Of a stretch of DNA of 64,000 nt, positions 883-58,449 are shown piece by piece. Made by a program: the position numbers and the translations under genes. This DNA comes from Effusibacillus dendaii. Lineage in GTDB: Bacteria; Bacillota; Bacilli; Tumebacillales; Effusibacillaceae. The DNA lies in NCBI RefSeq assembly GCF_015097055.1, contig NZ_AP023366.1, positions 2,560,001 through 2,624,000 on the forward strand. Reading direction: 5' to 3'. Positions within the stretch are counted from its first letter, which is position 1, and each line of letters begins with the position of its first letter. The notes beneath the pieces are model-generated. The model did no database searches. It was not told the origin of the DNA and worked only from the letters and a program-made list of their open reading frames with translations.

Positions 883-2049
883 ATGCAAAAATATATCCTA
901 TACATATCGAAATTAACAGGTGATATGAAGGGAATAGGGCGAGGTGTCTTTAAAAGCACTATACTCCTCCTATTAGGAAGTACCTTTGGCTTTTTATTTT
1001 CTCTAACAGGGGTTTCGATTGGATGGATGATAGGAACGATGATCCTGTTGGGTGCATTATCTATAGCAAGACCCTCATGGTTTGCATCAATCTTGCCGGA
1101 AAGTGGATTTAGCCCCCGTTGGAAAAATCTGGCGCAGTTGATATTGGCAGTTCAAATTGGTGAGCAAATGACCGCCCAGAAATGGGACATTTTTGCCCAC
1201 TCATGGTTCATCATAACTGGAATGTTAGTCCTATCCATGGTCTTTTCTGTTTTGTCGGGCATTTTTCTGAATCGTTATAGTAATGTGGGAGTTATTACCA
1301 GTTTATATGCGACTGCGCCTGGAGGTTTGAATAACATGCCTGCCATTGCAGAGGAGGTTGGAGCAAATACGGTGGTGGTAACAATCGTCCAGGTTACTCG
1401 AATTTTGGTGGTTGTTGGATTAATTCCTATCTTCGTTAGGGTGGAAGATCATAACAACCATATGATTACAACGAGTGTTGGAGTGGATACTTTGACGAAT
1501 GTTTCGATGTGGTGGGCGGGTTGCTTGCTCCTCGCTGCCCAGATTGGTTACCTTATCATGAAAAGGTTGAGGTTTCCGGCCGCACGAATGATAGGTGGAA
1601 TTATAGGTGTAGCACTGTGTCAACTCATTTCAACATCCATCACTGATACAGATCTAGTTCCGTGGTACCCGGCTGAGCTAAAAGTAATCATACAAATTAT
1701 ATTAGGGGCGAGCCTTGGATTGTCTATAAAAAAAGAAATGTTCAAAGGACTAGGTAAAATCACATTGTTAGGGATATTCAGTTCATCCGCACTGCTAGTT
1801 TTGATGGTTTTCTTTTCTTATTTATTATCCAGTAACTCTGGTATTTCTTATCTAACGGCCATTTTAGCTTTTGCACCGGGTGGCGTGGCGGAAATGACGG
1901 TAACAGCCCTGTCATTGCAAGAGAATGTTCCCTTTGTAGCATCTGCCCAAACGTTACGAATTATCATGACCTTCTTGTTGATTCCACCTTTATGTCGGTT
2001 TCTCTCGGTGTACCTGAATTTTAAGAGAGATACTAATCATAACATGTGA
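883..2049 (+). CDS. AbrB-family (PF05145-type) membrane transporter
   Basis: Polytopic membrane protein of 388 residues with about ten hydrophobic helices. It has the two-fold internal repeat of the family wrongly named 'AbrB' or 'ammonia monooxygenase' membrane proteins. Repeat signatures are TAPGGLNNMPAIAEE near residue 145 and FAPGGVAEMTVTALSLQ near 330, each followed by a V/T-rich helix ending in R-I. The family is thought to be a transporter with no settled substrate; it has nothing to do with the AbrB DNA-binding fold. A GGAGGGAG ribosome site lies just before the ATG. The adjacent GntR gene may control it (inference from position). Confidence 0.85.
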   Translation: MQKYILYISKLTGDMKGIGRGVFKSTILLLLGSTFGFLFSLTGVSIGWMIGTMILLGALSIARPSWFASILPESGFSPRWKNLAQLILAVQIGEQMTAQKWDIFAHSWFIITGMLVLSMVFSVLSGIFLNRYSNVGVITSLYATAPGGLNNMPAIAEEVGANTVVVTIVQVTRILVVVGLIPIFVRVEDHNNHMITTSVGVDTLTNVSMWWAGCLLLAAQIGYLIMKRLRFPAARMIGGIIGVALCQLISTSITDTDLVPWYPAELKVIIQIILGASLGLSIKKEMFKGLGKITLLGIFSSSALLVLMVFFSYLLSSNSGISYLTAILAFAPGGVAEMTVTALSLQENVPFVASAQTLRIIMTFLLIPPLCRFLSVYLNFKRDTNHNM

Positions 2050-2383
2050 TGCTAAATGCATGTAAACTTTCTTCTGTAAGGTTGGAGATTGCCGTTAGTA
2101 CCGCCGAACCATTGATGGTTTTTCAAACGATTTTCCTGTTAAAAATCAATAAGAGTATTTTTAGATGTACTGGAAATTTATGCACTAAATTTAGAATTAG
2201 GATAGGTCCGAACGACCCAGTACATATGGAATCGGACCCAACGATAGCATGGCAACAATGGGGTCGGGTACTGCTCTATCCCAATTGTTTAACGGGTGTC
2301 CGGTTGACAGGCTCCATCCGGATCATTCTTCAACTCTATTCCATCAATGTGTACATAGCGTGTCAACCTAGCCCCAGCCTGGT
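2050..2383. other. Intergenic gap, no supported gene
   Basis: This 334-base gap lies between convergent genes. A plus-strand open frame crosses it, but it has no ribosome site, has protein-unlike composition and runs into the minus-strand regulator, so I do not call it. A small hairpin AACCA-TTGA-TGGTT followed by T at 2107-2123 could end transcription of the transporter gene. I see nothing else. Confidence 0.5.
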
Positions 2384-3076
2384 CTACAATATCAAATCCA
2401 GTTTCTTTTGCACGTTTTGCAAGTGGATCCGGCACTGTACCTTGGCCAATTCCGGCTGGCCGGCTTCAATCGCCAGATAGATGTCTTCATGTTCCTTGTA
2501 TACCTGTTGCCGTTTTCGCGGCAAACCGATGTTTTGCTTTAGCGTTATGGCCAAAACCTTACGATATAAATCGGACAAATGAGTCATTGTATGCAGCATG
2601 ATCGGGTTGTGGGCCGCTCGAACCATTTGTTGGTGGAAACTGAAATCCGCTTCATCACCTGACTTGTCATTTGTTGAAAAGTCATATTTTAAAATTTGCA
2701 GGGCGTTATGCATTTGTTCCAAATCGCTTTCCGTCCGCCGCAACGCCGCAAGATAAGCGGCTTCTGTTTCCAGTATGATTCTGATTTCAAAAAGATGGCG
2801 CATCTGCTGCAAGTCGGTCGCCTGCACCTGCATCTGTGTCAACAATGACGAAACGTCGACTTCTTCCACATAATTGCCGCCGCCTTGGCGGGACGAAAGG
2901 ATGCCCAGTGCATTCAATACGCTCAGCGCTTCCCGGATTGTTGCCCGACTTACCGAAAAATGGGCAGCCAGATCCATCTCGCTCGGCAGTCGGGATCCGG
3001 CCGGAAATTGACCGGTGTTGATCATGGTCAGCAGCTGTTGGGATATGGTTTGTGAGATTTTCGGTTTCTTTCCCAT
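2384..3076 (-). CDS. FadR-subfamily GntR regulator (FCD domain)
   Basis: Regulator of 230 residues. The N-terminal winged helix (LPSEMDLAAHFSVSRATIRE, residues 32-51) ends in SSRQGGGNYVEE. The all-helical FCD domain (about 90-225) shows the metal/ligand pattern E-x-R near LFEIRIILETEAAYLAA, FHQQMVRAAHN and EHEDIYLAIEAGQPELA. Members of this group sense small carboxylates such as lactate, glycolate or gluconate. The gene sits 27 bases downstream of lhgO on the same strand and is probably co-transcribed, so it is likely the local regulator of the hydroxy-acid island. The start ATG follows GGAGTAACC. Confidence 0.9.
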   Translation of the reverse strand: MGKKPKISQTISQQLLTMINTGQFPAGSRLPSEMDLAAHFSVSRATIREALSVLNALGILSSRQGGGNYVEEVDVSSLLTQMQVQATDLQQMRHLFEIRIILETEAAYLAALRRTESDLEQMHNALQILKYDFSTNDKSGDEADFSFHQQMVRAAHNPIMLHTMTHLSDLYRKVLAITLKQNIGLPRKRQQVYKEHEDIYLAIEAGQPELAKVQCRIHLQNVQKKLDLIL

Positions 3077-43135: not shown

Positions 43136-45472
43136 TTACCAGTTAAAACTCGCGAATTCGTTCCATTCGGCCGGTGTTGCCGTTCTGCCCCGGTAGGTCG
43201 AATAGCCGATTGCGCCGTAATCTTTAGCAGCCTGCATGGCGCCGCGAATTTCATAAGGCTGCGGATACTGTCCTGCGTCACCGGGGAACATGTTATAGGA
43301 CTGGCCGACGATTTTAATCGGCATGTCTTGTCGGGTCAACTGGCGCAGTTTTGTGATTTCAGCACCGATGCTGTCGTACGCTTCTTTGTAGGTGTATGGT
43401 TTTGACTTGAAATGCCAATAGACCATCGGTTCCAATACATCGTAATATTTGGAGTAGACGCTCCACGGCTGGTTTGGCTTCCAAGTAGCCGGATAAATGA
43501 CTCCAAACAGCGGATAGTTGGGACCTGTGGCATCCCGGATTCCTTTTGCAAATGCCTCTTGTTGATAGGCCGCCAGGTTTTCTTCGATATCGGCTGCAAT
43601 TCCGTCGAATCTGTCACCTGTAGGAGTCGTATAATTAATGACTTGAATGGTTTGACCGGCATCCTTCCAGGGATCATTGTTTGCCGCATAAATCCAGCCC
43701 ACTACGGCAATTCCGGCTTTATGGGCTTTCGGCAGGAAATCGTCAATCGCGTCTTGTCCAAAGAACCCGTCTGTTGTCGTCGAGTTGAGCATATACACAT
43801 GTGTAACCCCGGCATCCTTTAACCGTTGAATGGTTTGATCGACCGGATAGTTTTTCCAGTCGCTGTACATCATCCATTCTCCTTTTCCGCTCGACAGATC
43901 AGCAGCTGATGTATATACGGTCAGTTGTTGAGTGGCGCTGATGGATCCCGACTGTGCGGTGATCGTGTAGCTTCCTTGCGTATTGCCCACCTTCAGGGTT
44001 CCAATGGGCGAATTGCTATTCGAAGAAATTGAACCCAACCGGCTGTCGTTGACCTTGAACGTAACGGGGAAAGTGGAAATCTCATTATCCCACATATCCA
44101 GTCCCTTGGCGCTGATCTGTACATCCTGACCGGGACGGACAAATGTAGAAGGAGCCGCGTGAACATCCAGTTTCGCAAGATCGCCTGGCGTTACAACAAA
44201 TGTGGCCGGTTTATCCAAGATGGTGCCTCTGGCAGACGCTGTAACCGTGTATGTTCCTGCTTTGGTTTTGGAAGTCTGCAACTGAGCGACGCCATTAACG
44301 GTAGATGCTTGCGTGGTGAACGTCCCATCCGGTCCCGTTATCGTAAATGTAACTGCACGGAGATTGTCCGTCTGCAGGAATTTCCCGTTTTCGTCATTGA
44401 CCTTAACGGTCAAATTGATCGTTTCGGTTGGTTTGTGTGAACCGTAATCGTCATTCGAGAACGCCAAATGTTTAGGTGCCTCAACAGTGACGTTGACACT
44501 TGCTGTAACAGGGGATTGCCCGGGCTGGCGAACAGTCGCGGTTATTTTTCCGCTGCCAGGTACCAGCGCGGTGAAAACCCCGTCTGATGAAATCTGTCCC
44601 ACGAGCCCATCTACGCTCCATACAACGGGTATACCCGAAACGGTAGAGTTCGCCTTATTGAACAGTTGCGCAGTCAGGGAGAGGGTTTCTCCCGCGACCA
44701 ACTTCACTTGATCGGGTGTAATCTGAATTCGGCTTACCTGTACGCTGGTTTTAAGATCGTTAATTTTTGCGGCAGGTACTTGCAACAGGTTATAAATCAT
44801 GCCGGCCGCTTCTGCACGGGTAGCGGTAGCAAGCGGTTTAAACGTACTGTCGGGATAACCGTTGATGATTTTTAACTGGCTGGCGATCGCCACTCCTTTT
44901 TGCTCGTCAGGCGAAATTTGGTCCGCATCGGCGAATGAACCGGTGCTTTTTAAAACTGCGTCAGAAACGGCAGGAATTTGTAAAGCATTGGCTATAAAAT
45001 AGGCCATATCCTGGCGCGTAATAGGCTGATCCGGTTGAAAAGAGGTGACGGACGCATCGCCAAACACTTTCAGTTTCGAGGCGGTCTGAATTTCTTTAAA
45101 GGCAAAATAGGAAGCTGGAACGTCATCGAAAACCGGAGTGCTGTCCGGGTCAAGCGGTGTCTTTAAAGCGCGTAACAGCAGGGTTACGAATTCGGCCCGG
45201 GTAATCGTGTCGGAAGGGGCAAACAAATTCGTGGCTTTCCCCCGTACGATTCCCATGTTTGACAATGTCTGAACGGCGGAAAACGCCCAATGTCCCGGTG
45301 GCACATCAGTATATTGGCCCTGTGATTGCGAGTCGGATTTGGCAGCAGCGGCCAAAGCCGTTTGGCTGTAAGCGGTTGGCAGCAGCGGAAGCGGGGCAAG
45401 CAGCGAAATTGCGATGGTGCCCGAAAGGGCTTTGCGCGACAGGCGTCGGCGTGAGGGTACTGGCATTTTCAC
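43136..45472 (-). CDS. SLH-domain surface protein with glycoside-hydrolase-like C-terminus
   Basis: Exported protein of 778 residues from the GTG at 45472 (GGGAGG ten bases before). The signal sequence spans 1-43, and three S-layer-homology domains about 53-105, 113-165 and 175-232 (QYTDVPPGHWAFSAVQTL first) attach it to wall polymer. A Big_2-like Ig domain follows (245-330), then two more beta-sandwich segments (335-520). The C-terminal domain (530-778) resembles the DUF4015-type putative TIM-barrel glycosidases, with YMLNSTTTDGFF, GIAVVGWIY, FDGIAADIEEN, DVLEPMVYWHF and GAIGYSTYRG at strand ends and candidate acids in DIEEN. A polysaccharide substrate is likely but unproven. Confidence 0.85.
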   Translation of the reverse strand: MKMPVPSRRRLSRKALSGTIAISLLAPLPLLPTAYSQTALAAAAKSDSQSQGQYTDVPPGHWAFSAVQTLSNMGIVRGKATNLFAPSDTITRAEFVTLLLRALKTPLDPDSTPVFDDVPASYFAFKEIQTASKLKVFGDASVTSFQPDQPITRQDMAYFIANALQIPAVSDAVLKSTGSFADADQISPDEQKGVAIASQLKIINGYPDSTFKPLATATRAEAAGMIYNLLQVPAAKINDLKTSVQVSRIQITPDQVKLVAGETLSLTAQLFNKANSTVSGIPVVWSVDGLVGQISSDGVFTALVPGSGKITATVRQPGQSPVTASVNVTVEAPKHLAFSNDDYGSHKPTETINLTVKVNDENGKFLQTDNLRAVTFTITGPDGTFTTQASTVNGVAQLQTSKTKAGTYTVTASARGTILDKPATFVVTPGDLAKLDVHAAPSTFVRPGQDVQISAKGLDMWDNEISTFPVTFKVNDSRLGSISSNSNSPIGTLKVGNTQGSYTITAQSGSISATQQLTVYTSAADLSSGKGEWMMYSDWKNYPVDQTIQRLKDAGVTHVYMLNSTTTDGFFGQDAIDDFLPKAHKAGIAVVGWIYAANNDPWKDAGQTIQVINYTTPTGDRFDGIAADIEENLAAYQQEAFAKGIRDATGPNYPLFGVIYPATWKPNQPWSVYSKYYDVLEPMVYWHFKSKPYTYKEAYDSIGAEITKLRQLTRQDMPIKIVGQSYNMFPGDAGQYPQPYEIRGAMQAAKDYGAIGYSTYRGRTATPAEWNEFASFNW

Positions 45473-45632
45473 GTTTCTACATCCTCCCAATAAAAGCATT
45501 ATGTAGAACTTCGACAAAAATTGAGCAAATCCTACACTATCTACTATAAAATTCGCTAGAAATAGCCAATTTACTAGGGTTAAATATAAAAAAATTTTCC
45601 ATTTTGGCAAATCGGTGGTCCATAAAAATTTT

Positions 45633-45663
45633 TTGATAACGCCATCGGAAAGTCGTTTATAAT
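45633..45663 (+). promoter_or_regulatory. Candidate promoter for the coiled-coil protein gene
   Basis: TTGATA (45633-45638) and TATAAT (45658-45663) are 19 bases apart, 21 bases before the start codon. The spacer is longer than ideal. Confidence 0.45.
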
Positions 45664-45684
45664 CGAATCTGAGGGAGGATTCAT

Positions 45685-45981
45685 ATGGACGAAACAAAGG
45701 AGCTATTAAAAGCGATTTTGGGAAGGCTTGAAGAAACAAGCGCAGATATTAAATTGCTAAAAGAGGACGTTAAATCGCTTAAAGAGGATATTACTTCAAT
45801 AAAAGAAGATGTTAAATCGCTTAAAGATGGACAACTTGAGATTAAAGATCGCTTGAGCCGAATAGAAATGCGCTTAGATTTTCAGCGAATAAGATTAGCG
45901 AAAACACAGAAGAAATTGAGATCCTTAAAAAGTCTGTTAGGTTTTAAAGCTGTTCCAACAGTCATTTTCTCAAATTTATAG
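45685..45981 (+). CDS. Small coiled-coil protein of unknown function
   Basis: Protein of 98 residues. Residues 22-70 are an almost perfect heptad array: LKEDVKS, LKEDITS, IKEDVKS, LKDGQLE, IKDRLSR, IEMRLDF, with Leu/Ile at the first position, so a parallel coiled coil is expected. The C-terminus is basic (RIRLAKTQKKLRSLKSLL) and ends in a short hydrophobic patch. The repeats are visible in DNA too (AAAGAGGATGTTAAATCGCT type). GAGGGAGGATTCAT precedes the ATG, and its own promoter and terminator surround it. I do not recognise a specific family. Confidence 0.75.
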   Translation: MDETKELLKAILGRLEETSADIKLLKEDVKSLKEDITSIKEDVKSLKDGQLEIKDRLSRIEMRLDFQRIRLAKTQKKLRSLKSLLGFKAVPTVIFSNL

Positions 45982-52901: not shown

Positions 52902-55385
52902 ATGAAAAAGAGCACAAAACTTCTTGCGGTTCTTTCTGCAACCGCAATCGCTACTCCGGTAGCAGTTGTAGCTCCGGCTGCTTCTTCCGTATTCGCTGCT
53001 GGCGCAGGCACCATCACTGCAGTAACGGTTCCGACGATTTCGACGGAAGCTACCACTGACCAAGCTCTTGGGAAAATTAAAGTTTCGGTTGCTGCAGGTT
53101 CCTTGAAAGCGGGCAACGTGGTAACGGTTAAACTTCCGAGCGGTGTGAAACTGCCGGATAACTCAGTAGCTCCGCAATCGGTTCAATCTGGTGGTAGTTC
53201 TGCATCTGTAGGTGGTAAAACTTACAAAAACTTTGTGTCGGTTCCGACCATCATCAACAACGCAGGTGATAAGAACGGTTTTGTTGGAACCAATGATCCT
53301 ACCGGCACTCCAGATCAAAACATTAGTCCGAACGCTGCCTCTAATATAAGTCCGTATACTGGGATCTTTAGTGTAAAACAATTAGGAGATGACCGCCTCC
53401 AAATTACGGTGCGCCAAGATCTTCTCTACGGCGGAAACACGGGTGCTGATGCTTCCCTCAATGGAAAAGCGGTAAGCTCTGTACAACCGTTCGACGCTGT
53501 ATTCTACGTTGAACTGTACGGCGTAGACGTTACGGGTGCAAGCGGCGGTCCGTTGGATGTTGTATTTGATGCTTCTCCCAACAGCGGTTTCCCGAATGGT
53601 AAAGTAACGGCTGCGAAAATATCTAACAGCGGTACCGTTTCCGTTGCTGTAGCTGACACGCAGTCTTCGAACGACAAGTTCCAAGTTAAAATTGACCTGG
53701 CGGAAGATGTTGCAGGTGCGTTCCGAAACGGAGATACGGTTAAGTTCAAACTGCCTTCTGGCTATAAGTGGAGCTCTACTGGTAATAAGGCATCTGTATT
53801 GTACGGGGATTCGGGTGTTGTTGATGGTACAATCATCGATCCCAACACTAATAAAGTTACCGCTAATGCTTTAACCATTGTTCCGAACGATCAAGAATTG
53901 AGAGTCAGCTACAATGAGACTGCAGCCGGTACTCGTTCGCAGGCAACTCAGATTGAACTGGTACTGAACTTCTACGTGGATGACAGTAATACAGCAAAAT
54001 ACGGTGATATTACTGCTACTGTATCCGGTCAATCCGATACAGATGTAAGCAACATCGTAGTTGGCCGCTATGGCGATTACAATGCTACCGTAACGGCTGC
54101 TACTCCGACCAATGTAATCTCCGGTCAGGATGAGCAGGATATCGCGGATATCACTATCCAAGAAGGAATTCCGGGCGCTCTGGTTTCCGGCCGTACCGTT
54201 GAATTGACACTGCCGGAAGGTGCTAGATGGCAGCCGGAATTCAAAGCAGATACGGATGGACTCAGTTCTACTGATCCGGCAAGTGCATCCACCGATGCAA
54301 CCACCACGAGTGAAAACGGGCTGCATCTCACGTTCACTGGTTACAAAGGAACGAACTACCGGACTGCTAAATTCACAGTTACCGGTGATTCTTCAAACAG
54401 CAAAGATCCGGGTAAAGTAACGATCAAGAATCAGCAAATCGCAGTTGACCCGACCTTTACCGGTGATGTTAAGGTTGAAGTTGGCGGCAGCGCATCTGTA
54501 ACCGGCGAAGTAGTAGTTGCAAAAGCAGCTGGTTCTATTAAAGCTTCTTCTTCTGCAACTCCGAAAGTAAATATCGGTGCTGCTGGTCAAACAGCTGGCG
54601 ACTTCACCATCACAGAACAAATCGCTGGTGGATTCAGCAAAGACAGCAAGCATGACAACAACCAAGTAATCCTTGACCTGCCGGATGGCGTAGCGTTCGA
54701 CGGCAAGCCGACCATTCAAGTTACTTCTGGTGACCTGACGATCGACAACATCCAAACGGCTGCTGACAACGGAACAAGCGACAACCGTGTAACATTCGAA
54801 GTTACTGGTGAAAGCACAACTCCGTCTACGATCAAGGTTTCGAACATCAAGCTGAAAGTAGACCGTACGGTTGCTGAAGGCCCGATTACCTTGAAAGTTA
54901 AAGGTCAACCGGTTGCTTACACTTCCAAGTACTCTGACTGGACCAACGATACGACGGCAGCTAAAGCTGACATCGCTACCGTTGCTACTCCGGCAGCTTC
55001 CGATCAAAGAGGCAACGCTGTATTCAAGATCGGTGCTACTTCCTACACCGTGAATGGTTCGGAACAAACGATGGATGCAGCTCCGTACATCAAAAACGAT
55101 CGTACGTACCTGCCGATCCGTTATGTAGCACAAGCTCTGGGCGTATCGTCCAGCAACATCCTGTGGAGCGACGCTGATCGTTCTGTAACGATCTTCCAAA
55201 ACAACCGGGTTGTTAAAATGACGATCGACAGCAACGTCATGTATGTAAACGGCGTAGCTGTAACGATTGATGCAGCTCCGGAAATCAATAACGGTCGTAC
55301 CATGCTCCCGATCCGCGCGGTTGGTCAGGCACTCGGTGCAGACATACAGTGGGATGCAACAGCTCAAACTGTAACCGTTAAGTAA
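52902..55385 (+). CDS. Major S-layer-like surface protein with C-terminal stalk domain
   Basis: Secreted protein of 827 residues. The signal sequence is residues 1-32 (cut after VFA). The body has at least four divergent beta-sandwich repeats, recognised by AAGSLKAGNVVTVKLPSGVK (64-83), VAGAFRNGDTVKFKLPSGYK (270-289), IPGALVSGRTVELTLPEGAR (423-442) and IAGGFSKD..NQVILDLPDG (574-596). Residues 706-827 are a copper-amine-oxidase-N-like 'stalk' domain in two halves (APYIKNDRTYLPIRYVAQAL, APEINNGRTMLPIRAVGQAL). Codons are strongly biased, the ribosome site is strong and a terminator follows, all typical of an abundant S-layer subunit. There are no SLH domains, so the stalk domain may be the wall anchor (inference). 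Confidence 0.85.
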   Translation: MKKSTKLLAVLSATAIATPVAVVAPAASSVFAAGAGTITAVTVPTISTEATTDQALGKIKVSVAAGSLKAGNVVTVKLPSGVKLPDNSVAPQSVQSGGSSASVGGKTYKNFVSVPTIINNAGDKNGFVGTNDPTGTPDQNISPNAASNISPYTGIFSVKQLGDDRLQITVRQDLLYGGNTGADASLNGKAVSSVQPFDAVFYVELYGVDVTGASGGPLDVVFDASPNSGFPNGKVTAAKISNSGTVSVAVADTQSSNDKFQVKIDLAEDVAGAFRNGDTVKFKLPSGYKWSSTGNKASVLYGDSGVVDGTIIDPNTNKVTANALTIVPNDQELRVSYNETAAGTRSQATQIELVLNFYVDDSNTAKYGDITATVSGQSDTDVSNIVVGRYGDYNATVTAATPTNVISGQDEQDIADITIQEGIPGALVSGRTVELTLPEGARWQPEFKADTDGLSSTDPASASTDATTTSENGLHLTFTGYKGTNYRTAKFTVTGDSSNSKDPGKVTIKNQQIAVDPTFTGDVKVEVGGSASVTGEVVVAKAAGSIKASSSATPKVNIGAAGQTAGDFTITEQIAGGFSKDSKHDNNQVILDLPDGVAFDGKPTIQVTSGDLTIDNIQTAADNGTSDNRVTFEVTGESTTPSTIKVSNIKLKVDRTVAEGPITLKVKGQPVAYTSKYSDWTNDTTAAKADIATVATPAASDQRGNAVFKIGATSYTVNGSEQTMDAAPYIKNDRTYLPIRYVAQALGVSSSNILWSDADRSVTIFQNNRVVKMTIDSNVMYVNGVAVTIDAAPEINNGRTMLPIRAVGQALGADIQWDATAQTVTVK

Positions 55386-55409
55386 TTGCTCTCTCGAGTA
55401 AGAATTTGG

Positions 55410-55434
55410 GACCCCCGCAAGGGGGTCTCTTTTT
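55410..55434 (+). terminator. Terminator of the S-layer gene
   Basis: GACCCCC-GCAA-GGGGGTC is a seven-base-pair GC-rich stem with a four-base loop, followed by TCTTTTTC. Confidence 0.9.
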
Positions 55435-55483: not shown

Positions 55484-57100
55484 GTGAAGAGACAACTATC
55501 GGTCTTTTTTGCGACTTTGTTGTTGACCAGTGCAGCGAGTACCGTGTCTGCGGCGGAATCAGCAATTCAGGTAGTCATTAATGGTCAGACCCGAACATTT
55601 GATCAGCAGCCGGTGATTGTCAACGACCGGACGTTAGTGCCGATGCGGGGGATCTTTGAGGCACTTGGGGCGCAGGTCAATTGGGATGATGCCACACAAA
55701 CGGTAACGGCTACAAAAGCCAATCTGCAGGTCAACCTTCAGATCAATTCGCTGGTTGCTACCAAGAACGGGACTTCTATCAATCTGGATGTTCCGCCCAA
55801 AATCATCAATGATCGAACGATGGTCCCGCTTCGTTTTGTAAGTGAATCGCTGGGTGCGAAAGTGGACTGGAACGCAAATGATCGTTCCGCCGTGATCACG
55901 TCCGATACTGCGGCTGCATCATCTGCAAACTTGACTCCAGGCTCATCTGTATCCAACTCAACAGATAGTGCATCTTCGGCGACTAACCCGGCGGGCAGTG
56001 CATCACAGTCCAACACGGCTGGGAACACTTCTGCAAGCAATACCACACAGACTGCCGCAGTTTCGAATGGTACGTCTGCCGATAGCAGCAATACGAACCA
56101 GCTGACGTATGACGCGGCGGTCACCATGGCAATGAACAGCAGTTACTCTTTGAAAAATGCCGCCAAAGATATCGAGCGTTCTAAAGAAGTGATGGACAAT
56201 GTTTCGGATGATGTGAAATGGATCCCGGCATCGGGGGATAACGCGTCAGCTGCGAAATTGTATTCCTCATTCGCCACTTCTCAGACCAGTTACCTGATGT
56301 CGAAGAAAAGTTATGAAATGGCGCAGGACGCGATTGCTTATGCGGTGAAACAGGCGTATAATGGTGTCTTCCAGGCACAGGAAGCTTTAAACTTGGCACA
56401 GATCGCCTATCAAAACGCCGATCAGCAAAACCGGATCACACAAGCCAAGTTCCAACAGGGAATGGCGAGCACAAATGATCAGCTTCAGGCACAAAACAAT
56501 TTTAAAAACGCCGATACTTCATTATCTGCGGCGAAAAAAGCGATGGATGACGCGTACCAAAAGCTGGATAAATTGTTGGGCCTGCCAGTTGATGCACGCC
56601 CAAGTCTGGTGGATGTACCCCAGATGACTAACAGCTCGATTGATGCAGATGTGAAAGTGAATCAGGTCATCAATGACAGTCCAAACATTTGGCAAGCGGA
56701 GCAGAATGTGAATTTGGCTCAGCTCCGGGTCGATCTGTATACGTTTAACGATCCATCTGCTGATCCGTACAAGGCCAAAGAGATCGATGTGGAAAAAGCG
56801 AAGCTTTCGGTCGGTCAACTGAAAGATCAGTTGGAAAAAACAGTTCGTTCTCTCTACAACGCGATTAAGCAAGAGGAAGACCAATATAAAGGGTTGCAAA
56901 GCAAACTGCAGGCTGCCGAAGACAACCTTCGCGTTGCGAAAGTGAAGTATGATAACGGAACGGGTATCCAGGCTGATGTGGTAGCCGCACAATTGGCTGT
57001 TGAACAGATCAAACAACAGATGCTCAGCTTGGCTGCACAGCATGACAACAACCTGATGGCATTTGATAAGCCCTGGGCTGCATCAGGCGGCGGTCAATAG
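55484..57100 (+). CDS. Stalk-domain / TolC-like fusion protein
   Basis: Exported protein of 538 residues from the GTG at 55484 (GGAGGG six bases upstream). Signal sequence 1-23; residues 26-141 are a copper-amine-oxidase-N-like stalk domain (QPVIVNDRTLVPMRGIFEALGAQVNWD, PPKIINDRTMVPLRFVSESLGAKVDWN); 142-205 is a Ser/Thr/Asn/Ala linker. From 206 it resembles TolC/OEP proteins, with LTYDAAVTMAMNSSYSLK and two copies of the long-helix pattern, KFQQGMASTNDQLQAQNNFKNAD...LDKLLGLPVD (322-370) and KYDNGTGIQADVVAAQLAVEQIK (488-510). A monoderm cell has no outer membrane for a TolC pore, so the helices probably form a surface or wall-spanning structure. Confidence 0.8.
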   Translation: MKRQLSVFFATLLLTSAASTVSAAESAIQVVINGQTRTFDQQPVIVNDRTLVPMRGIFEALGAQVNWDDATQTVTATKANLQVNLQINSLVATKNGTSINLDVPPKIINDRTMVPLRFVSESLGAKVDWNANDRSAVITSDTAAASSANLTPGSSVSNSTDSASSATNPAGSASQSNTAGNTSASNTTQTAAVSNGTSADSSNTNQLTYDAAVTMAMNSSYSLKNAAKDIERSKEVMDNVSDDVKWIPASGDNASAAKLYSSFATSQTSYLMSKKSYEMAQDAIAYAVKQAYNGVFQAQEALNLAQIAYQNADQQNRITQAKFQQGMASTNDQLQAQNNFKNADTSLSAAKKAMDDAYQKLDKLLGLPVDARPSLVDVPQMTNSSIDADVKVNQVINDSPNIWQAEQNVNLAQLRVDLYTFNDPSADPYKAKEIDVEKAKLSVGQLKDQLEKTVRSLYNAIKQEEDQYKGLQSKLQAAEDNLRVAKVKYDNGTGIQADVVAAQLAVEQIKQQMLSLAAQHDNNLMAFDKPWAASGGGQ

Positions 57101-57136
57101 ATAGATCCGAAGCGTGTAAGAGGCTGTCCCAAAAAG

Positions 57137-57245
57137 TGAACTGGCACCCCGTCAAGTAGACAGTACAAATAATAAAAATCAGTTAGGCGGTCTTGGTCCT
57201 AAATTCGATTGGACTAAGACCGTTTCGTTTTGCCTGTCATCGCTC
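57137..57245 (-). mobile_element. Remnant end of an IS3-family element
   Basis: On the minus strand the frame ending at 57183 reads QAKRNGLSPIEFRTKTA then stop, the usual C-terminus of IS3-group transposase OrfB. It is followed by an A/T stretch and an end resembling an IS terminal repeat (TGAACTGGCACCCC on the plus strand at 57137). Only this end survives; upstream the frame is closed by a stop. Confidence 0.6.
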
Positions 57246-57275
57246 GTGGCATCTTTATACTGACGTTTGGTTTCT

Positions 57276-57440
57276 TCATCCTCTTTGGTACGGCCCCGAC
57301 ATGGGAAAGGCTATCTGATGGAACTTCTCATCCAGCTTTTGATCATACTTTAGGGTAGATCTCTTCCGGACAAAGGTATATTTATTGGCGTTGTCTTCAA
57401 GCTTCACTAATCCTTCTTCGTGAAGGAGGATTCGACACAT
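57276..57440 (-). pseudogene. Unidentified 54-residue frame, probable gene fragment
   Basis: It reads CRILLHEEGLVKLEDNANKY then TFVRKRSTLKYDQKLDEKFH and ends QIAFPMSGPYQRG. Composition is protein-like, with charged helical character, but there is no ribosome site and the upstream frame is broken. I do not recognise a family. It lies in the IS debris and may be a leftover of a longer gene. Confidence 0.25.
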
Positions 57441-57607
57441 GAACAGTCGTTTTTTTCATACTCTAAGTCGCCCGATAAGGCGGACAGGATCGGGGCGATT
57501 ACGTGTCCACAAGTTGCTTAAACGTATAAAACCGTTAAAATGTTGTCTCTGCCCGTATATAAAACTGGAGGTAAGTCAATTATATTAGGTAAGACGAAAT
57601 AAAATGT

Positions 57608-57756: not shown

Positions 57757-58032
57757 ATGTCGGTCACTACTAAAGTTTCATCGAAAGGGCAGGTTGTTAT
57801 CCCTGCAGAAATTCGAAAGGCCATTAAGGTGGAGGAGGGCGATAGTCTCGCATTTGAGGTAATTGACCAGGGCACTTTACGTGTTCGGGTGATAAGAACT
57901 AAGCCTTTAATGTCATTGTTTGGAGCTTTGTCGGCACGTCCAAATCAACCAGAAATGGACTTTCAAGAGATTCGCAGGCAAGCCCGTTATTCGATGACAG
58001 AGAAGAGATTCTCTAAAGGAGAAGGTTTATAA
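57757..58032 (+). CDS. AbrB/MazE/SpoVT-type antitoxin
   Basis: DNA-binding antitoxin of 91 residues. The swapped-hairpin domain is TKVSSKGQVVIPAEIRKAIKVEEGDSLAFEVIDQGTLRVRVI in parts (residues 5-47). The C-terminal half (LSARPNQPEMDFQEIRRQAR) would wrap the toxin. ATG at 57757 has GGAGGG nine bases upstream and begins right before the domain. A start at 57658 also has a good site (AGAGGGGGAG) and would add 33 residues. The PIN toxin gene begins directly after the stop. Confidence 0.85.
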   Translation: MSVTTKVSSKGQVVIPAEIRKAIKVEEGDSLAFEVIDQGTLRVRVIRTKPLMSLFGALSARPNQPEMDFQEIRRQARYSMTEKRFSKGEGL

Positions 58033-58449
58033 TTGGCGCATAAAGTATGGGTTGATACAAATGTAATTATTAGCTTTTTAACTAAAGACTCCAATGGCAT
58101 CGAAGCGGCTCAGCTGATGGAAAAAGTCCAAAGTGGTGAAGTTACTTTAAAAGTACCGTCAATTGTTATTGCTGAGTGTTGTTGGGTTTTAGAAGGGCCT
58201 CGTTTTGGATATACACCATCTGACATTGCTACTACTTTGACACATCTTATTTATGCGGATGGCATTGAAGTAGACGAGAAAAGTGTCATTTTAGAGTCCT
58301 TACAGAATTATGCAGCACATGGGATTGATTTTACTGATGCTTATATGGCAGCGCACAGCCGTGCGAATCCGCCAGATCACGTTGCAACCTTCAATATAAA
58401 GGATTTTCAAAAATTAGGTATAACAGTAAGTCGTCCTAAAGATATTTAA
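58033..58449 (+). CDS. PIN-domain toxin, VapC-like
   Basis: Probable RNase toxin of 138 residues. Acidic metal-binding residues are in place: Asp8 (WVDTNVIISFL), Glu48 (SIVIAECCWVL), and Asp99/Asp102 (GIDFTDAYMAA), followed by ATFNIKDFQKLG. The TTG start directly abuts the antitoxin stop. The final TAA overlaps the ATG of the following glycosyltransferase gene, so the toxin and the transferase share a message. Lower G+C than the surface genes around it suggests acquisition. Confidence 0.87.
   Translation: MAHKVWVDTNVIISFLTKDSNGIEAAQLMEKVQSGEVTLKVPSIVIAECCWVLEGPRFGYTPSDIATTLTHLIYADGIEVDEKSVILESLQNYAAHGIDFTDAYMAAHSRANPPDHVATFNIKDFQKLGITVSRPKDI

Follow-up and report, generated by a model that had tools for sequence, protein, structure and literature searches.

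A predicted barrel-less TolC-type duct fused to a wall-binding stalk domain beside a putative S-layer gene in Effusibacillus dendaii

TolC-type ducts are textbook outer-membrane proteins, and the distal end of TolC is prolonged by a beta-barrel that sits in the outer membrane. What, then, can such a duct do when it is joined to a wall-binding domain in a bacterium that seems to have no outer membrane? This question is raised by a gene at 55484-57100 on the forward strand of the window, i.e., the whole stretch of 64,000 nucleotides of Effusibacillus dendaii DNA analysed here. The reading that we favour, with a probability of roughly 0.63, is that the gene encodes a barrel-less exit duct of the TolC or outer membrane factor (OMF) type, which serves a tripartite pump and is tied to the wall and the S-layer. 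Such an arrangement suggests a drug or export pump emptying through the wall and the protein coat.

The gene has a GTG start and encodes 538 amino acids. Upon inspection of the sequence, residues 1-23 (55484-55552) form a signal peptide that ends between VSA and AE and is devoid of a lipobox. This is followed by a PF07833 stalk domain at residues 31-137 (55574-55894; Pfam E 5.2e-41, 139.4 bits against a cut-off of 24.2), a linker rich in Ser, Asn and Thr at residues ~138-203 (55895-56092), again recognized by inspection, and a TolC-type helical domain at residues 204-538 (56093-57097), which is assigned by PF02321, AF2 and Foldseek/VIA. In particular, PF02321 (OEP) matches two stretches of the protein (E 1.9e-20, 73.9 bits against a cut-off of 22). 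Thus, the profile search with PF02321 and PF07833 that the sequence-only reading had proposed places both domains above their cut-offs in a single open reading frame, and its description of a stalk joined through a Ser/Asn linker to TolC/OEP repeats holds.

The OEP part was modelled as a monomer with AF2 from an alignment of two sequences. The model is all helix (pLDDT 75.9, pTM 0.64), with helices at domain residues 6-41, 50-121, 127-162, 185-195, 197-219, 226-287 and 293-325 that include two long helix-tip-helix units. With this model, Foldseek returned 44 matches at E<=0.001 (best 2.5e-8), all of them TolC/OprM-type channels, so that an unrelated coiled coil, named beforehand as the outcome that would refute the reading, gave way to a predicted fold that significantly matches only outer-membrane factors. 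Similarly, the predicted monomer matches the TolC protomer fold in VIA, with Z up to 21.9 over 324 residues for TolC/OprM folds versus 10.8 for the best non-OMF fold. Both long-helix repeats are therefore present as had been claimed, while they lack the beta strands by which the outer-membrane portion of TolC is defined: no strand is predicted anywhere in the domain, and the regions where the hairpins would lie are shortened.

The extent of this shortening can be appreciated by comparison with E. coli TolC (K-12 record). The helix bodies before the two tips are of equal length in both proteins (37 and 43 residues), whereas the first hairpin region between fixed columns spans 59 residues in the duct versus 86 in TolC (27 shorter) and the second 39 versus 91 (52 shorter). 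The first TolC beta-hairpin is replaced by distal loop 1 (..DDVKWIPASGDN..; 56207-56260) and the second by distal loop 2 (TFNDPSADPYKAKEIDV; 56741-56794). Across 46 relatives the loops are conserved at an average level or below that of the helices, with no strong overall conservation found, and single residues stand out, namely a Pro in loop 1 (43/46) and a Tyr in loop 2 (42/46). At the opposite end, the putative adaptor-docking tips carry a Gly that is invariant in all 46 sequences: domain residue 123 in tip 1 (56456-56470) aligns with TolC G147, and domain residue 289 in tip 2 (56954-56968) with G365. As modelled, the domain is a TolC-type helical module without either outer-membrane beta-hairpin, with short loops in their place.

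The loss of the barrel can be set against the type of envelope. No match to Omp85/BamA is found in the E. dendaii genome, in line with the earlier claim of a host without an outer membrane, and Omp85 is above cut-off in none of 32 carriers (E. dendaii and 31 other genomes). The contrast was evaluated with PF02321, chosen since its scoring is independent of our own profile, on 20 Bacillota genomes with and 25 without Omp85, all carriers of relatives, and a hairpin half was counted as covered when the PF02321 match started at profile position <=19. At least one match covering the hairpin half occurs in 19 of the 20 Omp85-positive genomes, while none of the 25 Omp85-negative genomes has a match starting before profile position 40 (Fisher p 8e-12, which serves as a guide only as the genomes are related). 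Barrel-less OEPs are present in Omp85-positive genomes as well, frequently together with barrelled ones, and barrel loss is therefore not a pure monoderm trait. For the same reason, barrel length taken from matches to our own profile was rejected as a clean monoderm/diderm marker, since that profile favours the barrel-less forms. A puzzling case of the two OEP types within one diderm operon is provided by locus L143 of an Omp85-positive Bacillota genome, where a barrel-less OEP gene (778-2007) is followed by a barrelled one (2004-3001), both on the forward strand.

A second line of evidence comes from the gene directly upstream (52902-55385, forward strand), which encodes a putative S-layer protein of 827 amino acids. 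This identity is suggested by the composition (pI 4.72, no Cys, rich in Thr, Ala, Val, Ser and Gly), a signal peptide seen by inspection, a beta-rich AF2 model of low confidence (pLDDT 48, too poor for use), and a PF07833 domain at C-terminal residues 716-826 (55047-55379; Pfam E 1.9e-36); no PDB sequence match was found. The wall-domain type is thus common to the two neighbours, as the sequence-only reading had stated. Between the genes lies a terminator-like hairpin (55408-55429, forward strand) with a 9-bp stem followed by TTTTT.

The pairing extends well beyond E. dendaii. Relatives are detected by our own profile in 60/399 genomes of the class and in 217/398 genomes of the phylum, the latter including weaker and more distant OEPs. 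The gene of an S-layer-like homologue immediately precedes that of the OEP protein in 18 of the 22 strong loci of the class-level set, which comprises 21 loci of the class and the Syntrophomonadaceae locus L039 (a further locus, L042, broken by an apparent frameshift, is not counted among the 22), and in 17 of 27 other loci of the phylum. A fusion of stalk and OEP domains is seen in 14/22 loci of the class-level set versus 0/27 of the others, so that the gene pair is a wide feature and the stalk fusion a lineage variant. The fusion is also seen in two loci, L100 and L103, from bacteria that we guess to be Paenibacillus-like; under the same guessed family name, several unfused, weaker OEP copies are adjoined by SLH proteins. 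A reverse-strand gene of our window (43139-45739) codes for three SLH domains together with several Big domains, and E. dendaii appears to employ both SLH and stalk anchors.

A tripartite pump also needs its inner partners. No pump gene adjoining the duct gene was found within the window, and the closest RND gene lies at a distance of about 55 kb, in a set that comprises EmrA-like, HlyD-type, MFS, adaptor and RND genes and that matches the set located directly after the gene pair in L041 and L042. The last adaptor of the E. dendaii set carries R...L......S, a spacing reported as the RLS motif and proposed to bind TolC-type tips (PMC4446572). Among the relatives, L041, L042 and L039 have genes for adaptors and an RND pump behind the gene pair; stalk-OEP, adaptor and RND genes are consecutive in L107 and L108; and EmrA-like and MFS genes follow in L090, L091, L093 and L094, with an extra adaptor in the last three. 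Overall, 15 of the 60 loci scanned have pump genes downstream, although many loci offered just 1.5 kb of flank, and several of the adaptors in these loci have RLS motifs. The search for a MacAB- or HlyD-like pump that the sequence-only reading had proposed points to RND and MFS transporters with HlyD-type adaptors, in linked or syntenic clusters, as the predicted partner rather than to MacAB.

Some further observations concern the same loci and the surroundings of the duct gene. The stalk-OEP genes of L107 (7025-8470, reverse strand) and L108 (6754-8211, forward strand) are second copies, placed in compact operons without an S-layer gene. In E. dendaii, a second adaptor and RND pair, whose adaptor has an RLS-like motif, is found in L058 (8188-12683, forward strand), and those weak OEP matches elsewhere in the genome that were examined (L049) were rejected as ducts, as they are HlyD-type adaptors. 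Just downstream of the duct gene, a pair resembling a MazE-like antitoxin and a PIN-domain toxin is encoded at 57757-58449 (forward strand). The long non-coding stretch at 57100-57560 resembles the end of an IS, yet an insertion between the duct and the downstream genes is unsupported because its sequence occurs just once in the genome.

The favoured reading has four rivals. That OEP profiles merely caught a coiled coil by chance is conceivable for a helical, Ala/Gln-rich sequence, in a genome where adaptor coiled coils do give weak OEP matches; however, the full two-repeat topology, structural matches specific to TolC and far above those to other helical folds, the conserved tips and the spread of homologues over many families of the phylum make this explanation hardly credible. 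An ordinary TolC sitting in an unrecognized outer membrane would likewise account for the OEP repeats, yet no Omp85 is found, no beta-barrel segments are predicted and a wall-binding domain is present instead, and we consider it extremely improbable.

The neighbouring gene lends itself to two other explanations. One is that the protein is a wall-bound structural or assembly helper of the S-layer, i.e., a rigid spacer or docking rod derived from a duct, which organizes subunits and transports nothing. The very frequent pairing with an S-layer-like gene, the stalk domain common to both proteins and the window devoid of an adjoining pump gene would all suit this function, which is nonetheless unlikely in view of the two invariant glycines of the putative adaptor-docking tips, the helix lengths equal to those of TolC, and the adaptor and RND genes directly after the OEP gene in several relatives, including L107 and L108, where the S-layer gene is missing. 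The other is a dedicated, type I-like outlet that would export proteins, either the S-layer protein or a different secreted one, rather than small molecules. Pairing with the gene of a secreted protein and HlyD-type adaptors in linked clusters are compatible with it, but the S-layer-like protein has an ordinary Sec signal peptide and the transporters in these clusters belong to the RND and MFS types rather than to the ABC exporters, and we rate this possibility as quite low. The exit-duct reading is itself favoured by the fold, the tip glycines, the helix lengths, the absent Omp85, the contrast between Omp85-positive and Omp85-negative genomes, the S-layer-like gene next door, the SLH neighbours of the Paenibacillus-like copies, the pump genes of relatives, the matching set about 55 kb away in E. 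dendaii and the co-shedding of TolC-like and S-layer proteins in C. difficile. Against it count the window without an adjoining pump, the terminator-like hairpin between the paired genes, the low share of loci with pump genes nearby (15 of 60), the barrel-less OEPs of Omp85-positive genomes and a structure that comes from a monomer model based on two aligned sequences.

A wall-crossing conduit held in the S-layer thus represents the best-supported hypothesis, and the duct most likely serves RND/MFS tripartite pumps as an outlet that crosses the wall to open at the S-layer. In this scheme, three copies of the duct would most likely form the usual 12-helix alpha-barrel, and the proximal tips of this barrel would meet the HlyD-type membrane-fusion adaptors that serve RND (and MFS) pumps of the cytoplasmic membrane. 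At the other end, where short loops are left, the duct would have its opening within or beneath the S-layer, and the N-terminal stalk on its flexible linker would tie the duct to the wall, probably through the same ligand as the neighbouring S-layer-like protein. A broader proposal is that the two genes form a conserved, Bacillota-wide unit, with the distal loops binding to an S-layer lattice that replaces the outer-membrane barrel, so that S-layered monoderms would possess true envelope-spanning tripartite pumps and the fused stalk would add a wall anchor in this lineage; we regard it as tentative and possible rather than probable. Should a duct trimmed of its barrel indeed be anchored to the wall and paired with the S-layer-like gene over much of the phylum, single-membrane bacteria could pump through their whole envelope, S-layers would acquire a second function, and a trace would be preserved of how outer-membrane machinery was reworked upon loss of the outer membrane.

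The system had been put forward as a candidate for an undescribed one, but its outline is already present in the main text of Stubenrauch et al. 2022 (PMC8809574), which reports TolC-like proteins and pump operons in twelve S-layer-bearing monoderm Firmicutes, presents a model of a C. difficile TolC-like protein in which part of the barrel is missing, draws a pump housed in the S-layer, and cites the co-shedding of TolC-like and S-layer proteins by C. difficile. As in those cases, a TolC-like protein with a reduced barrel occurs in a host devoid of Omp85, with a putative S-layer protein as its neighbour and pump operons in relatives; in the present protein neither hairpin is left, and the contrast with Omp85-positive genomes has been quantified. 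Neither the stalk fusion nor the pairing with an S-layer gene is reported in that main text, to which the comparison is limited, and no paper describing a stalk-OEP fusion was found in the literature searched. Thus, the stalk fusion, the phylum-wide pairing and the Omp85 test are apparently new, and they give a short proposal from the literature the concrete form of a testable protein pair.

The duct resembles TolC/OprM outer membrane factors in its two OEP repeats, the lengths of its helices, the glycines at its tips and the predicted monomer fold, while it differs in lacking the beta-barrel hairpins, in its added wall-binding stalk and in a host without Omp85. As in AcrAB-TolC, MexAB-OprM and EmrAB-TolC, RND/MFS transporters and adaptors with RLS motifs occur in linked or syntenic clusters, but the exit proposed here is the wall and S-layer, and the pump of E. 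dendaii itself is about 55 kb off. Finally, PF07833 (copper amine oxidase N-terminal, 'stalk') has been described on cell-surface proteins of Desulfotomaculum reducens, for which an OEP protein is likewise reported (PMC4137172); the duct and the S-layer-like protein carry the same domain as such wall proteins, and in the duct the stalk would anchor a TolC-type domain.
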